Below are positions 22,779 through 32,303 of a stretch of DNA of 43,476 nucleotides, piece by piece (the stretch's first letter is position 1; every line of letters begins with the position of its first letter). The translations under genes and the position numbers were made by a program. The notes beneath the pieces are model-generated. The model did no database searches, was not told the DNA's origin, and saw only the letters and a program-made list of their open reading frames with translations. The DNA comes from Akkermansia muciniphila (GTDB lineage: Bacteria > Verrucomicrobiota > Verrucomicrobiia > Chthoniobacterales > Chthoniobacteraceae): NCBI GenBank assembly GCA_945906945.1, contig CAMDSZ010000003.1, forward strand, positions 1 through 43,476. The letters run 5' to 3'.

Positions 22779-22867
22779 GTTGGGGGGGAACACCCGCTGC
22801 GGCGCTTGTTTTTTGGAGGATTTGCTTTGATGAAACTTTGTGTTGGAGGTGAATGGAGAGAACGGAA

Positions 22868-24106
22868 ATGAAGAGTTTGATTCTAACGAATGAGTTTCCA
22901 CCGAATATCTATGGTGGAGCTGGCGTGCACGTCGATTACCTCACTAGAGAACTCTCGCGCTTGATGGAAGTGGAGGTTCGCTGCTTCGGTTCTGATGGCC
23001 GTGATCTACGCGTAAACGATCAGTCGTTGAAGGCCACGGCATACGGCGTTGACGCCTCCGAATACGGTGCGCCGCGGCCGTTGCATTCGGTTTTCACTGC
23101 CCTTGAGCGCTGCCTAGATTGGAACAGCGCGGGCATAGACGCGGACGTCGTGCATCTGCACACTTGGTACACTCATTTCGGGGGGATTCTGGCAAAGTTA
23201 AACTACGGAATTCCGCTCGTTCTCACGGTTCATTCTCTCGAGCCGCTGAGGCCGTGGAAGCGCGAGCAACTCGGTGGCGGCTACGATTTCAGCTGCTGGG
23301 TTGAGCGCACGGCGATAGAGATGGCTGATGCCGTGGTTGCTGTCTCCGCGGACACCAAGGCGGATGTCTTGCGCCTCTTCAACGTGCCCGAATCAAAGGT
23401 CCGCGTCATCCACAACGGAATTGATTTGAATGAGTTCAAGGCAGTCAATGCGGACGCTGTCCTGGCAAAGTACGGCATTGATCCATTGCGGCCTTACATG
23501 CTGTTCGTCGGCAGAATCACGCGTCAGAAGGGCATCCTGCATCTGGCGAATGCGATCCGCCACATGAGCAAAGATTTTCAGATCGTGTTGTGTGCGGGTG
23601 CGCCCGATACACCCGAGATCGCCGCTGAAATGCGCTGCAAAGTGGATGAGGCTCAGGCTCTGCACGGCAGCGTCATCTGGGTGGAGTCCATGGTCGCGAA
23701 GCAGGATTTGATCGCGCTGTATTCGCGGGCTGCGGTGTTCTGTTGCCCGTCGGTTTACGAGCCTTTTGGAATCATTAATTTGGAAGCGATGGCTTGCGAA
23801 ACCGCCGTTGTGGCGAGCGCCATAGGCGGAATTCCGGAAGTGGTCGTGCCTGAAGAAACCGGGATCCTGGTTCCGCTTGCGCTCAAGCACGGAACCTTTG
23901 AGCCGCAAGATTCCGAGGCTTTTGAAAAGGGATTGGCTATGGGCGTGAATCGGTTGATGTCCGACGAAGCTCTCCGTGTTCGAATGGGCTCGGCTGGGCG
24001 TCGGCGAGCTGAACAGCATTTTTCATGGTCGTCCATCGCGGCCAAGACTCACCAGCTCTACAGCGAGCTGCTCCAATCCCGGAAATCCGCACGCACCTCA
24101 GGTTAA
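22868..24106 (+). CDS. glgA: Glycogen synthase, GT4 (Corynebacterium-family type)
   Basis: MKSLILTNEFPPNIYGGAGVHVDYLTREL, VRVIHNGIDLNEFK, FVGRITRQKGILHL, CCPSVYEPFGIINLEAMACETAVVASAIGGIPEVV. Confidence 0.85.
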   Translation: MKSLILTNEFPPNIYGGAGVHVDYLTRELSRLMEVEVRCFGSDGRDLRVNDQSLKATAYGVDASEYGAPRPLHSVFTALERCLDWNSAGIDADVVHLHTWYTHFGGILAKLNYGIPLVLTVHSLEPLRPWKREQLGGGYDFSCWVERTAIEMADAVVAVSADTKADVLRLFNVPESKVRVIHNGIDLNEFKAVNADAVLAKYGIDPLRPYMLFVGRITRQKGILHLANAIRHMSKDFQIVLCAGAPDTPEIAAEMRCKVDEAQALHGSVIWVESMVAKQDLIALYSRAAVFCCPSVYEPFGIINLEAMACETAVVASAIGGIPEVVVPEETGILVPLALKHGTFEPQDSEAFEKGLAMGVNRLMSDEALRVRMGSAGRRRAEQHFSWSSIAAKTHQLYSELLQSRKSARTSG

Positions 24107-24122
24107 GTAGAAACGTTACCCC

Positions 24123-25241
24123 ATGTTTGTTGATCATATTCGAGTCGAGGCGTACGCCGGTGCGGGAGGCAATGGATGCGTTTCGTTCAGGCGCGAGGCT
24201 TTTGTCCCCAAGGGCGGTCCCGACGGTGGCGACGGTGGCAAGGGAGGGTCGATCATCCTGCGTGCCGATGTGCACACGGACAATCTCACGAACTTCTTCT
24301 ACGAACCTATCCTGCGCGCCCACCATGGCCAACATGGCATGGGGAAAAAGTGTTACGGCAAATCCGCTGAAGACAAGGTATGCCGCGTCCCGGTTGGTAC
24401 TCTGGTGTTCCGGTTACCCTCGAAGAAATCCGGTGATGAGCTCGAGGCTTCCGTGCTCTATGGCACCTCTTCCACGTTTGTGGATTTGGCGAAATCGCCG
24501 GAGGACGAACCCGAGGTCCCTACAGAAGGGGATGTGCAGGAAAAAGAACTAATTGCTGATCTCACAGAGCCCGGTCAGGAGTTTGTGCTCTGCAAGGGGG
24601 GGAAAGGTGGACTGGGGAACGTGCATTTTAAAAGCTCCCAGAACCGGGTGCCCACTGAATTTACCTACGGCGAGGAGGGGGAGTCTGGGCTGTTTTACTT
24701 TGAACTCCGCACCATCGCCGACATTGGTTTGGTCGGATACCCGAATGCGGGAAAATCCACCCTCCTCACAAGCATTTCGGCTGCCCACCCAAAAGTCGCC
24801 TCCTATCCTTTCACCACATTGACCCCGCACATTGGGGTTGTGAAACTTCCGGAGTTTGAGCGTTACACCGTTGCAGACATACCGGGGTTAATCGAGGGGG
24901 CCCATAAAAATGTGGGTCTTGGCCACGAATTTTTACGGCATATCGTGCGTTGTAAGCTCCTTGCTTTTGTGGTGGATGCGGCCGGCAGCGAGGGGCGCGA
25001 CCCCATCTCTGACCTGCAGAATCTTAGGAAGGAAATTGATCTCTACGATTCCAGCCTCTCCGAGCGGCCTTGGGTCATTATTGCCAACAAAACGGACCTG
25101 GAAGGCGCTGCGGATTTCCTGCCCGTTCTCAGGCAGCGCTTCAAACGCGTTGAGATATTCGAGGTCAGCGGCTTGAAGTCCGACGGGGTGGAGGCGATGA
25201 AAAGGCGGCTCGGGGAAATTGTGGGAACGGCCGTGGTTTGA
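24123..25241 (+). CDS. obgE: GTPase ObgE/CgtA
   Basis: Obg fold GAGGNGCVSFRREAFVPKGGPDGGDGGKGGSI, GYPNAGKSTLL, TVADIPGLIEGAHKNVGLGHEFLRHI. Confidence 0.97.
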   Translation: MFVDHIRVEAYAGAGGNGCVSFRREAFVPKGGPDGGDGGKGGSIILRADVHTDNLTNFFYEPILRAHHGQHGMGKKCYGKSAEDKVCRVPVGTLVFRLPSKKSGDELEASVLYGTSSTFVDLAKSPEDEPEVPTEGDVQEKELIADLTEPGQEFVLCKGGKGGLGNVHFKSSQNRVPTEFTYGEEGESGLFYFELRTIADIGLVGYPNAGKSTLLTSISAAHPKVASYPFTTLTPHIGVVKLPEFERYTVADIPGLIEGAHKNVGLGHEFLRHIVRCKLLAFVVDAAGSEGRDPISDLQNLRKEIDLYDSSLSERPWVIIANKTDLEGAADFLPVLRQRFKRVEIFEVSGLKSDGVEAMKRRLGEIVGTAVV

Positions 25242-25290: not shown

Positions 25291-25308
25291 TTGTGAAATT
25301 TTTCACAA
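25291..25308. promoter_or_regulatory. Candidate Rex (NADH/NAD+-sensing repressor) operator
   Basis: TTGTGAAATTTTTCACAA: full match to the Rex consensus TTGTGAA-N4-TTCACAA; in the obg-atpB intergenic region. Confidence 0.7.
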
Positions 25309-25431
25309 AGTCCTTGCGGCTTTCGCGGGCTTTGGGTTTCCTACACGACTCCCCAGTGCCTTGACGTATCGTTTCCTATGCCGTTACGAAAAGCTGCGGG
25401 GCGACAGGTCGTTTCCAATTACTCTCTGAAG

Positions 25432-26367
25432 ATGTTCCATTTTTTTATCAACATGTTGAGGCGTCTAAGCCGGCAAGCTTCCCTGCAGGCCTGCGGTGCG
25501 CTCATGTTTCTTGGCGGCGCTGCATTGGCTTCTGACCCCTCGCACGCTGCTCATGCGGATGTGAGTCTTCCTCAGGCGGCGCCCGTACTTTTCAATATTG
25601 GCCCTCTGCCGGTGAGCAATTCAATGGTGGTGACTTGGTTGGTGACGATCTTGATCATCACGGTTGCGCGCCTTGCAACCCGGAGCATGAAAGAGACTCC
25701 TGAGGGGTTGCAAAATTTTGTGGAATGGATTGTCGAAAGCCTCAGGAACTTTCTGGAAAGCGTGCTTGGCCGCGAGCTCACTGCAAAGACCTACTGGTTT
25801 TTTGCCACGTCCTTTGTCTTCATCATGGCAACGAACTGGTTTGGACTCCTCCCAGGCGTCGGGACGATTGGATGGGGCGTACCTGATGAGACCGGCGCAC
25901 TGCATCACATCAGCCGCCCGCTTTTGCGTGGTGCAAACGCGGACTTGAACCTCACCCTCGCAATGTCAGTTGTCTTTTTCGGAGCATGGTTTGGCTGGGC
26001 ACTGCGCGCAAATGGCGTGGGCGGTTTTCTACTCCATATCTTCGGGCCCCGCGGTGACTCAAAAGGGTTGATGAAGCTTTTGATGGTTGTGGTGTTTCTT
26101 TGCGTAGGCGTGCTTGAAATGGTTTCGATCCTGTTCCGCCCGGTTTCGCTCTCGTTCCGCTTGTACGGAAATATTTTCGCGGGGGAAACGATGTTGGAAG
26201 CCATGTCGAATCTAGTGCCGGCGCTTGCTCCGCTGATTCCAGTTCCGTTTTATTTCATGGAGCTGCTCGTCGGCTTCGTTCAGGCGCTGGTCTTCACGCT
26301 CCTTACCGCGGTCTTCACATTGTTGATTTGTTCTCACGGGGACGAGCACGGAGAGGCGCCTCATTAA
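25432..26367 (+). CDS. atpB: F0F1 ATP synthase subunit a
   Basis: ORF 25378..26367; likely start at 25432 (MFHFFINMLRR); SLSFRLYGNIFAGE motif with conserved Arg; upstream of atpE. Confidence 0.95.
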   Translation: MFHFFINMLRRLSRQASLQACGALMFLGGAALASDPSHAAHADVSLPQAAPVLFNIGPLPVSNSMVVTWLVTILIITVARLATRSMKETPEGLQNFVEWIVESLRNFLESVLGRELTAKTYWFFATSFVFIMATNWFGLLPGVGTIGWGVPDETGALHHISRPLLRGANADLNLTLAMSVVFFGAWFGWALRANGVGGFLLHIFGPRGDSKGLMKLLMVVVFLCVGVLEMVSILFRPVSLSFRLYGNIFAGETMLEAMSNLVPALAPLIPVPFYFMELLVGFVQALVFTLLTAVFTLLICSHGDEHGEAPH

Positions 26368-26510
26368 GCTCTTTTGACGAATATCGCCGGCCGCTGCGCA
26401 CGTTTTGTAACCACCCAGATCCCACCGCTTTTCTAACAAACCAATTTCACGCAACTGACCGTGGCAAGCCTGCGGGGCTGCGTGTGAGACAAACCCAAAC
26501 GACAAAAACC

Positions 26511-26723
26511 ATGAACATAACAACAATCGCTGAATTAGCAGGCAACCTACACATCGGTCTTGCTGCTATCGGTTCCGCTCTTGCAGTGGGAATGATCGGA
26601 TTCAAGGCATCGGAAGCAGTGGGACGCAACCCAGGTGCGGCCACGCCAATCCTGATCCAGGCGATCCTCAGTTCGGCTCTGGCCGAAGGAATCGTCTTCT
26701 TCGCGATCTTCCTCGCGAAGTAG
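26511..26723 (+). CDS. atpE: F0F1 ATP synthase subunit c
   Basis: 70 aa MNITTIAELAGNLHIGLAAIGSALAVGMIGFKASEAVGRNPGAATPILIQAILSSALAEGIVFFAIFLAK; start corrected from ORF 26328. Confidence 0.96.
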   Translation: MNITTIAELAGNLHIGLAAIGSALAVGMIGFKASEAVGRNPGAATPILIQAILSSALAEGIVFFAIFLAK

Positions 26724-26798: not shown

Positions 26799-27353
26799 AT
26801 GATTTCCGCCGCATTTCTCGCAGCAGCACCTCAGGCTAGTATTTCGGACACAGCCCGCGCCATGGGGGAAACCTTTGGATTCAACTCCTGGGCGTTTGTC
26901 GCGCAAATCCTCTCTTTCTCGATCGTTTGTGCGGCTCTGTACAAACTCGCCTATCATCCGATCCTCAAGGTTCTCGAAGATCGACGTCAGCGGATCGAGG
27001 CGACATACCGCGAGGCAGCGGCACTCAAAATCCAGGTTGCCGATGCCGAGAAGCGGGCGAGTGAGATAGTGGTGCAAGCCTCATCAGGCGCCCACAAGTT
27101 GGTGGAAGACGCCAAAGTTGCCGCACTGGAGTTTCAGGAGAAGCAAATGCAGCAGGCCAAGGCCGAGGCGGAGGCGCTGGTTGCAAAGGCAAGGGCAGAT
27201 ATCAAGCGTGAGCGCGAAGTGATGCTTGCGGAGTTGCGCTCGGAAGTCGCCAGCTTGGTAGTGCGCACAACCGCGAAGGTTGCGGGCAAGGTGCTCACCG
27301 ACGATGACCAGCGCCGACTCACCGACGAGGCTAGTCGCGAACTTGCTGCTTAA
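26799..27353 (+). CDS. atpF: F0F1 ATP synthase subunit b
   Basis: N-terminal TM plus long charged helix (LKVLEDRRQRIEATYREAAALKIQVADAEKRA), operon position. Confidence 0.94.
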   Translation: MISAAFLAAAPQASISDTARAMGETFGFNSWAFVAQILSFSIVCAALYKLAYHPILKVLEDRRQRIEATYREAAALKIQVADAEKRASEIVVQASSGAHKLVEDAKVAALEFQEKQMQQAKAEAEALVAKARADIKREREVMLAELRSEVASLVVRTTAKVAGKVLTDDDQRRLTDEASRELAA

Positions 27354-27377: not shown

Positions 27378-27776
27378 ATGAAACTCAGTAAAGAAGCTCG
27401 GCTTGGCGCTAAATCCTTGGCGAAGGCATGCATGTCGGGAGGTACTTTGGATCATTCCAAGGTCTCTCGTGTTCTCTCTGAAGTTTCCAGCAAGCGTCCC
27501 GCGGGCTACGCACAGATGCTTCACGAGTTTCATCGGTTGGTGCGGCTCGAAGTGGAGAGAAAGACGGCGCTCATCCAGACGGCTAGTCCTATCGATGCCG
27601 CCGGCAGGGATTCGCTAACCAAGGCGGTTCGCCAGCGCTTCGGCGCCGATGTTGAAACGCACTTCTCTGTGAATGCCGAATTGATAGCGGGCGTCAGAAT
27701 CAGGGTGGGAAGCGACTTGCTAGATTCAAATGTGAGGGAGCGTCTTACGAGACTCGAAGCGGACCTTGCGCACTAG
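27378..27776 (+). CDS. atpH: F0F1 ATP synthase subunit delta (short form)
   Basis: 132 aa; OSCP-like C-terminus ELIAGVRIRVGSDLLDSNVRERLTRLEADL, operon position. Confidence 0.85.
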   Translation: MKLSKEARLGAKSLAKACMSGGTLDHSKVSRVLSEVSSKRPAGYAQMLHEFHRLVRLEVERKTALIQTASPIDAAGRDSLTKAVRQRFGADVETHFSVNAELIAGVRIRVGSDLLDSNVRERLTRLEADLAH

Positions 27777-27854: not shown

Positions 27855-29384
27855 ATGAGTAATATCCTCCAAGAAATAGAAGCCACGATCTCGGGCATGA
27901 AGACCGGAGCCGTGCGTTCCAATGTCGGCATTGTGCGCCAAGTGGGCGATGGTGTCGCGCGCATCGAAGGGCTGAGCGATGTGATGCTCAATGAAATGAT
28001 CGAGTTCCCAGGCGGCCTGTACGGCATTGCCTTGAACCTTGAGGAAACCGAAGTTGGCGCCATCCTCCTCGGGGAGGACAGAGCAGTGACCGAGGGCATG
28101 GAAGTCCGCACCACAGGCAAGCTTCTGTCCGTTCCGGTGGGCAAGGAATTGTTGGGGCGCGTCGTGAACAGCCTCGGTGAGCCGATCGACGGCAAAGGCC
28201 CGATTCACTCGACAAAACAGTATCCTGTCGAAAAAATTGCTCCAGGCATCATCAAGCGGCGTTCGGTCAGTCAGCCGATGACAACAGGCATCATGGCCAT
28301 CGATGCCATGATTCCAATCGGCCGCGGGCAGCGTGAGTTGATCATTGGTGATCGCGCAACGGGTAAGACCACGATCGCCGTGGACACTATCATCAATAAC
28401 GCTCGTACCAATAAGCTCAACGCCGGTAAGCCCGGATTCAGACCCGTGTATTCGATTTACGTCGGCGTGGGTCAGAAAAACGCGAACATCGCAAGAACCG
28501 TGGCCGTGCTCGAAGAAGCCGGCGCGCTGGAGTACACGATCGTCCTTTCAGCTCCAGCATCCGATACCGCAACCAACCAGTACCTCGCGCCTTTCGCCGG
28601 CTGTTCGATGGGTGAATGGTTCATGGATAATGGAATGGATGCTGTCATTGTTTTTGATGATTTGTCCAAACACGCCGTCGCCTACCGGCAGGTGTCACTG
28701 CTGCTGAAGCGTCCCTCGGGCCGCGAGGCTTATCCCGGTGATGTGTTTTATCTGCACTCCCGTCTGCTCGAGCGCAGCGCTCGTTTGAGCGAGAAAAGCG
28801 GCGATGGCTCGCTCACGGCGCTGCCGATTATTGAAACGCAGGCGGGTGACGTCTCTGCCTACATTCCGACCAACGTGATTTCGATTACAGACGGCCAGAT
28901 TTATCTGGAGACGGATTTGTTTTACCAAGGCGTAAGACCGGCTGTTTCCGTGGGTCTTTCGGTGAGCCGTGTGGGTTCCGCCGCGCAGATCAAGGCGATG
29001 AAGCAGGTGGCTGGCAAGATCAAGGGTGACCTTGCACAGTTCCGGGAATTGGCTGCTTTCGCGCAGTTCGGCTCTGATCTGGACGCGAAGACAAAGGCCC
29101 AACTGGACCGCGGTCAGCGTATTGTCGAGGTGTTCAAGCAGACACAGTACCAGCCGATGCCTGTCGAGCTTCAGGTGTCTACGCTGTGGGCCATTCAAAA
29201 CGGTCACTTCGACGACGTTCCAGTCGCCTCGGTGAAGGACTTCCAAAACAAACTCCAGGATTTCTTTGTGACTCGCAAGGATGCGGTGTTGGCAAAAATC
29301 CGCGACAAGGGCGCTGTGGACGACGCCATCACTGAAGATCTCAAAACTTCACTGGCCGAATTCAAGCAGGGCTACAAAGCCTAG
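27855..29384 (+). CDS. atpA: F0F1 ATP synthase subunit alpha
   Basis: [33 protein letters not shown]. Confidence 0.99.
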
Positions 29385-29442: not shown

Positions 29443-30345
29443 ATGGCCGCCAACACTCGAGATATCCGCCGACGCATTAAGTCGGTGAAAAATACGGCGC
29501 AGATTACTAAGGCGATGCAGATGGTCGCCGCATCGAAGATGCGCAAGGCACAGCAGGCTGCGATCGCCAGCCGCCCGTATGCCGAGGAGCTCTCGCGCCT
29601 GCTTCGCCCCTTCATCGACATGTTGGGTGATGAAGATCGGGCTCCACATCCACTGATGGACTCCCGCGAAGTGAAGCGTGAGTTGGTGCTTGTCCTCTCC
29701 ACGGACAAGGGCCTCTGCGGTGCATTGAACACAAATCTTTTCCGCGAGCTTTCCCAGTTCGATCCCGCCAAGACAGACTTTGTTTGCGTGGGCAGAAAAG
29801 GCGCTCAGTTCCTGGTGCGCTCTAAGTGTTCAGTAATCGCTGAATTTGATCTGAAGGATAATTTTAGCTTCCACCATGCTCAGACGGTCGCGAAGTTCTG
29901 CATGGAAGAGTACATGAAGGGAAAGGTGGATCGAATCACGGTTGCCTACTCCGACTTCGTCAACACCCTCACACAAATTCCAAGCACACGCATCGTTGCT
30001 CCGGTTCATTCTTTTGATCTCGGAGCGACCGCGCTCGACGGAAAAAATGATGAAACCAGCGGGGCGAAAATCACTCCGCCAGATGTTACCGAGTACCTGC
30101 TGGAGCCGAACAAGGACACGCTGCTCGATGAACTTCTGCCACACTTTGTGTTCTTCAAGATCTACCATTTGGTGCTTGAAAGCCGCGCCTCGGAGCATTC
30201 CGCCCGGATGGTCGCGATGAAGAATGCGACGGATAACGCGAAACAAATCATCAAGGATCTAACGCTCGAATATAACAAAATCCGTCAGGCGAGTATCACG
30301 ACCGAGATTCTCGAAATCGCAACCGCGCAGATGGTGCTCTCCTAA
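29443..30345 (+). CDS. atpG: F0F1 ATP synthase subunit gamma
   Basis: DIRRRIKSVKNTAQITKAMQMVAASKMRKAQ, STDKGLCGALN, RMVAMKNATDNA. Confidence 0.98.
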   Translation: MAANTRDIRRRIKSVKNTAQITKAMQMVAASKMRKAQQAAIASRPYAEELSRLLRPFIDMLGDEDRAPHPLMDSREVKRELVLVLSTDKGLCGALNTNLFRELSQFDPAKTDFVCVGRKGAQFLVRSKCSVIAEFDLKDNFSFHHAQTVAKFCMEEYMKGKVDRITVAYSDFVNTLTQIPSTRIVAPVHSFDLGATALDGKNDETSGAKITPPDVTEYLLEPNKDTLLDELLPHFVFFKIYHLVLESRASEHSARMVAMKNATDNAKQIIKDLTLEYNKIRQASITTEILEIATAQMVLS

Positions 30346-31803
<1,458 letters not shown>

Positions 31804-31898: not shown

Positions 31899-32303
31899 AT
31901 GGCTACCGTAAGATTAGAAATAATAACCCCCGAGGCTGTTGCTTACAGGGATGATGTGGACATGGTTTTACTGCCTGCGGAATTGGGGGAAATGGGTGTT
32001 TATCCCATGCACGTTCCTCTCATCACCAAGATTATGCCGGGTGAGTTGGTGGTGACTAAAGGCGCTGAAAAGGCTCGGATCGCAATCGGAGAAGGGTTTG
32101 CGGAGATCACCCAGACGAACATTCGCGTGCTTGCTGACATGGCGATCGAAGAAGCGCAGATCGATGAAGAGGCCGCTGAAAAAGCGGTTGAACGTGCGCA
32201 GGAGCGGTTGCGTCAGGGAAGTCTGGGGGATGAGGAAGTGGCGATGGTAAACGTCATTCTCGCCAAATCACTCGCGCAGCTGAAGGTGAAGCGGCGCCGG
32301 TAG
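31899..32303 (+). CDS. atpC: F0F1 ATP synthase subunit epsilon
   Basis: 134 aa; VRLEIITPEAVAYRDDVDMVLLPAELGEMGVYPMHVPLIT, C-terminal helical part. Confidence 0.95.
   Translation: MATVRLEIITPEAVAYRDDVDMVLLPAELGEMGVYPMHVPLITKIMPGELVVTKGAEKARIAIGEGFAEITQTNIRVLADMAIEEAQIDEEAAEKAVERAQERLRQGSLGDEEVAMVNVILAKSLAQLKVKRRR

Follow-up and report, generated by a model that had tools for sequence, protein, structure and literature searches.

A predicted Rex operator upstream of the ATP synthase operon and a probable respiratory Rex regulon in rex-bearing Verrucomicrobiae

Introduction

We interpret the palindrome that precedes atpB, the first gene of the ATP synthase operon, as an operator bound by a Rex-family repressor that senses NAD(H), and we assign a probability of about 0.9 to this reading. 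It is also probable, at a lower level of confidence, that in the rex-bearing Verrucomicrobiae one NADH-sensing repressor governs nearly all of the oxidative phosphorylation chain (complex I, whose pieces are encoded separately, alternative complex III, NDH-2, ATP synthase and, in one genome, cytochrome bd) and also quinone synthesis, through MqnE and polyprenyl diphosphate synthase. This regulon would have ATP synthase among its best-kept targets and would have disappeared along with rex from several lineages. The sequence analysed, referred to hereafter as the window, is the whole 43,476-nt stretch of contig 3 from a 4.06-Mb assembly of 416 contigs that is about 89% complete.

Results

A perfect palindrome lies between obg and atpB

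All the genes of the atp region described here lie on the + strand. The gene upstream of the operon is obg (GTPase ObgE/CgtA, 24123–25241), which scored above cut-off with NF008955 and TIGR02729; rplK (ribosomal protein L11, 22243–22668) and a glycogen-synthase-type glycosyltransferase gene (22853–24106) are its own upstream neighbours. The operon begins with atpB (F0F1 ATP synthase subunit a, 25378–26367; TIGR01131 above cut-off). Its start codon may be at 25378 or 25432, and the starts of matches vary from residue 16 to 26 in same-genus genomes. It is followed by atpE (subunit c, 26328–26723), matched weakly and below cut-off by PRK07159 over residues 53–130, with a true start that is probably later than that of the listed reading frame; by atpF (subunit b, 26799–27353; TIGR01144 above cut-off); and by atpH (a divergent subunit delta, 27378–27776), which matched several subunit-delta models, all below their own cut-offs. 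The remaining genes are atpA (subunit alpha, 27855–29384; TIGR00962), atpG (subunit gamma, 29443–30345; TIGR01146), atpD (subunit beta, 30373–31803; TIGR01039) and atpC (subunit epsilon, 31899–32303; TIGR01216).

The obg–atpB intergenic region holds the putative Rex-type operator TTGTGAAATTTTTCACAA at exactly 25291–25308 (strand unassigned). Its arms, TTGTGAAA and TTTCACAA, form a perfect 8-bp inverted repeat with TT at the centre, and 16 of the 18 positions equal their own reverse complement. The Rex consensus, as given in a study of Streptomyces avermitilis, is TTGTGAAN4TTCACAA (PMC5355995), and TTGTGAAATTTTTCACAA is the sole match to it in the window at up to one mismatch. No such match was obtained in 100 dinucleotide-shuffled windows, the chance expectation in the window being none. 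The perfect 8-bp arms and the full consensus match claimed in an earlier note on this DNA are thus upheld, by exact position and by arm complementarity, and the match is unique in the window. When the pattern was relaxed to TTGTGAN6TCACAA with three mismatches allowed, 16 matches were found in the window as compared with 14.6 expected. Because loose matching is no richer than chance, it is the perfect site that carries all of the weight.

A perfect inverted repeat 50 nt past the obg stop codon could instead be a transcription terminator or an RNA element of obg. However, the stem would consist largely of A and U and close on a 2-nt loop, there is no T-run after it, folding of the region as RNA gives nothing out of the ordinary (z -0.68), and the same 18-mer stands before unrelated genes genome-wide and between divergent nuoD and NDH-2 genes. 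Given the ordinary fold, the missing T-run and the recurrence of the site in unrelated settings that are not those of a terminator, an RNA hairpin was rejected as extremely unlikely, and the palindrome is treated below as a candidate Rex operator.

The genome carries one rex gene with intact DNA-contacting residues

A rex homologue, which the earlier note had suggested looking for, is present as a single gene (C18:22391, 66 bits against PF06971). Its product, of 206 amino acids, combines the PF06971 domain with a Rossmann domain and scored above cut-off with several NCBIfam Rex models, and its best PDB matches are Rex chains. The DNA-contacting residues of Rex have been described for the T. 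maritima protein (PMC8836258). All of the strictly conserved contacts (R12, S33, K43, Q46, R48, K49, G58, R60, G61 and Y64) are kept, an ungapped alignment placing their equivalents at an offset of +1 (R13, S34, K44, Q47, R49, K50, G59, R61, G62 and Y65). Glu34 and Ser52 of T. maritima Rex are not kept; both vary within the Rex family (PMC8836258). The NAD-binding GXGXXG motif is retained as GVGQLG.

No exact site was found near rex when this genome and 29 relatives from its order were scanned. Rex regulons are often autoregulated, autoregulation being common rather than obligatory. In G256, which belongs to another class, the only exact site lies ∼50 bp before its own rex.

Other sites adjoin respiratory and quinone-synthesis genes

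The whole 4.06-Mb genome contains only three perfect matches to the consensus, one before atpB, one before the gene for the ActA-type multihaem cytochrome of alternative complex III (actA; L006/L118) and one before nuoD (L007/L117). The genome-wide scan proposed earlier, for sites upstream of respiratory genes and of rex itself, was therefore productive for nuoD and the alternative complex III operon and gave none before rex. Near-matches in this genome (one or two mismatches) were left out of the Rex site count. Those with a CG-type centre (GTGAATCCGTTCAC-like; G000 C207:1819, C9:6817, C19:630, C21:20418 and C31:9539; L017–L020 and L022) are probably operators of another regulator, perhaps of the LacI type.

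Across the order, 52 exact sites besides those at atpB were examined, and all of them adjoin respiratory-chain or quinone-synthesis genes: nuoD (16 sites), actA (10), polyprenyl diphosphate synthase (10), mqnE (9), nuoEF (5), nuoB (1) and cydA (1). At eight sites (L139, L140, L147, L160, L163, L165, L166 and L169), one operator is common to nuoD and a divergent NDH-2-type gene. Three genomes from other families of the class carry sites before atpB, nuoD, nuoB, nuoE/F, NDH-2, actA and polyprenyl synthase, a list that leaves out one G328 site (L270, 3402); a site before an apparent nuoG was seen in them by eye only. At the mqnE and polyprenyl diphosphate synthase loci of relatives (L138, L141, L145, L124 and L129) the exact operator coincides with the start codon or stands immediately ahead of it, unlike its position in atp, act and nuo. 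This placement suggests a road-block or initiation-region mode of action at those genes.

The motif is conserved before atpB and co-occurs with rex

The exact motif, TTGTGAAANNTTTCACAA, was found in 43 of 97 genomes of the order, and the reversed-pattern control in 0 of 97. The rex gene was found in 41. Both were present in 39 genomes, the motif only in four, rex only in two and neither in 52 (Fisher p ∼4e-20, a value that overstates independence because the genomes are related), with loss of both in several families. Among the 87 remaining genomes of the class, the motif is present in 14, which are exactly those with rex above cut-off (14/0/0/73; p ∼2e-16, or 6e-13 if four marginal below-cut-off rex matches are counted). 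One genome, G308, has neither rex nor any site, and its genus sisters G337 and G348 keep both, which we read as a recent joint loss. A search with the Rex protein found no rex in the four motif-bearing metagenome-assembled genomes (MAGs) that lack it, G046, G052, G063 and G086; MAG incompleteness may account for these. Genomes outside the class often have rex but almost never the exact motif, G256 being the one exception, so other forms of the Rex consensus are likely to be in use there.

Forty motif-bearing genomes of the order could be assessed at atpB, the DNA upstream of the gene being present, and in 37 of them an exact site precedes it. In G004 and G040 the equivalent position holds a degenerate version with the same CTTGC after it, and G041 has no version there. 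Named genomes that match AtpB belong to the Verrucomicrobiota. The version found before atpB in Chthoniobacter flavus Ellin428 (L184) reads TTGTGAAAAAATTCACAA. The palindrome is thus kept before atpB in rex-bearing relatives, a point that the earlier note had put forward for checking; together with the presence of rex, this supports its reading of the site. In G094 there are two atpB matches (C215:355 and C182:11257), each with an exact site upstream, reflecting either a duplicate operon or assembly redundancy.

The main rival is an operator of the CRP/FNR family, because the palindrome also fits the CRP consensus: the inner 16-mer, TGTGAAATTTTTCACA, matches TGTGA-N6-TCACA, the E. coli CRP operator, letter for letter. 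The atp operon would then answer to cAMP or another CRP-family signal, and the distance from the operator to the predicted -35 element (see below) would suit a CRP-type activator. However, no CRP-type helix-turn-helix protein scored above cut-off in this genome (the best match, at 25 bits, is partial), genomes with full-length CRP matches, such as G008, G064, G087 and G095, have no motif, and rex-bearing genomes without any CRP match carry it. Conservation also extends inwards to AAA/TTT, which is demanded by the Rex consensus and not by that of CRP, and the occurrence of the motif follows rex. As there is no above-threshold CRP homologue here and the motif does not track CRP across the order, we rejected this alternative as very improbable and retained Rex as the predicted regulator.

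The operator adjoins a predicted promoter

A scan of the obg–atpB intergenic region with the sigma-70 consensus gave no promoter, and the promoter was therefore placed by comparing relatives. Twenty atpB sites and two other sites from this genome were aligned, 22 in all. CTTG occurs 4–6 nt past the operator in 20 of the 22 (chance P ∼0.06 per site), and a TTTT[AC]T box at 17-nt spacing is conserved in relatives (first T in 21/22, last T in 18/22). The comparison places a putative -35 element, TTGCGG, at 25314–25319 on the + strand and a putative -10 element, TTTCCT, at 25337–25342 on the same strand, separated by a 17-nt spacer, with transcription predicted to start at ∼25349. The operator adjoins this predicted promoter, ending 5 nt before the conserved -35/-10 pair, and its predicted centre is at about -50, just upstream of the -35. 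The TTGACG hexamer to which attention had been drawn earlier does exist downstream, at 25361–25366, ∼53 nt away. As a promoter element it is not conserved, TTGAC[AG] being found in the corresponding stretch of 0 of 19 relatives, and it is probably not the promoter.

In records named Pedosphaera or Limisphaerales the atpB site reads TTGTGAAANNTTTCACGA. These genomes appear, when read by eye, to have a lineage variant of operator and promoter in which the operator may contain the -35, because TTGTGA sits 17 nt before CAATTT-like boxes. At L182, L189, L193, L197, L204, L220 and others among these records, the atpB site ends in TTTCACGA or TTTCACAT and is preceded by an A-tract.

An operator that ends 5 nt before the -35 and has its predicted centre at about -50 could also serve an activator, so that Rex might bind yet activate atp, or act as its dual regulator, from just upstream of the -35. 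Several observations make this improbable. In S. avermitilis, Rex represses atpI, where its footprint spans -50 to -22, the -35 included (PMC5355995), and a Rex footprint reaches past the 18-mer by several bp. In related orders the -35 itself seems, when read by eye, to fall within the operator (TTGTGA-N17-CAATTT), and the mqnE and polyprenyl-synthase operators abut the start codon. Since a -35 within the operator and abutment on the start codon both suit blocking, repression is favoured over activation.

Discussion

By analogy with the Rex family, 25291–25308 would be occupied by a Rex dimer carrying NAD+ (or little NADH). Lying over or directly against the -35 at 25314–25319, the dimer would deny RNA polymerase access to the atpB promoter. 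A rise in NADH would then release Rex and allow transcription of the atp operon alongside that of complex I, of alternative complex III and of the other respiratory genes bearing the same operator.

The kind of regulation is known already, because Rex control of atp has been proven in S. avermitilis by EMSA, ChIP, footprinting and higher transcript levels in the mutant (PMC5355995); the Streptomyces precedent invoked earlier is accordingly sound for this species. The S. avermitilis regulon resembles the present one in its consensus, in the Rex family of its regulator, in its targets atp, nuo, cyd and ndh2, and in that the operators of atp and nuo lie at or over the -35 (PMC5355995). It differs in that its sites are degenerate, whereas those found here are near-invariant, and in that rex-hem is autoregulated there, whereas no site is found at rex here. 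The targets given in the available part of that paper do not include alternative complex III, mqnE or polyprenyl synthase (PMC5355995). The same source records that oxygen limitation lowers S. avermitilis atpI whether or not Rex is present (PMC5355995); redox gating may therefore be only part of the control of atp. The operator of S. aureus Rex, TTGTGAAW4TTCACAA, is matched exactly here, including A/T at the four central bases, but S. aureus Rex targets genes of fermentation and anaerobic respiration (PMC2883068), whereas respiratory-chain and ATP synthase genes are the targets here.

We found no published account of Rex in Verrucomicrobia in the openly accessible literature, and within that literature alternative complex III, MqnE and polyprenyl synthase appear to be new Rex targets. 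Ravcheev et al. 2012 is said to be a large comparative study of Rex.

The NADH-sensing Rex switch has been characterized mainly in Gram-positive bacteria, and the Verrucomicrobiota are abundant, poorly studied bacteria of soil and freshwater. A Rex switch appears to run respiration in this phylum, because the site recurs before respiratory genes and is kept almost only where Rex is kept. The finding would thus extend the NADH-sensing respiratory switch to the Verrucomicrobiota, and it predicts that the synthesis of ATP synthase in these bacteria follows the NADH/NAD+ ratio.
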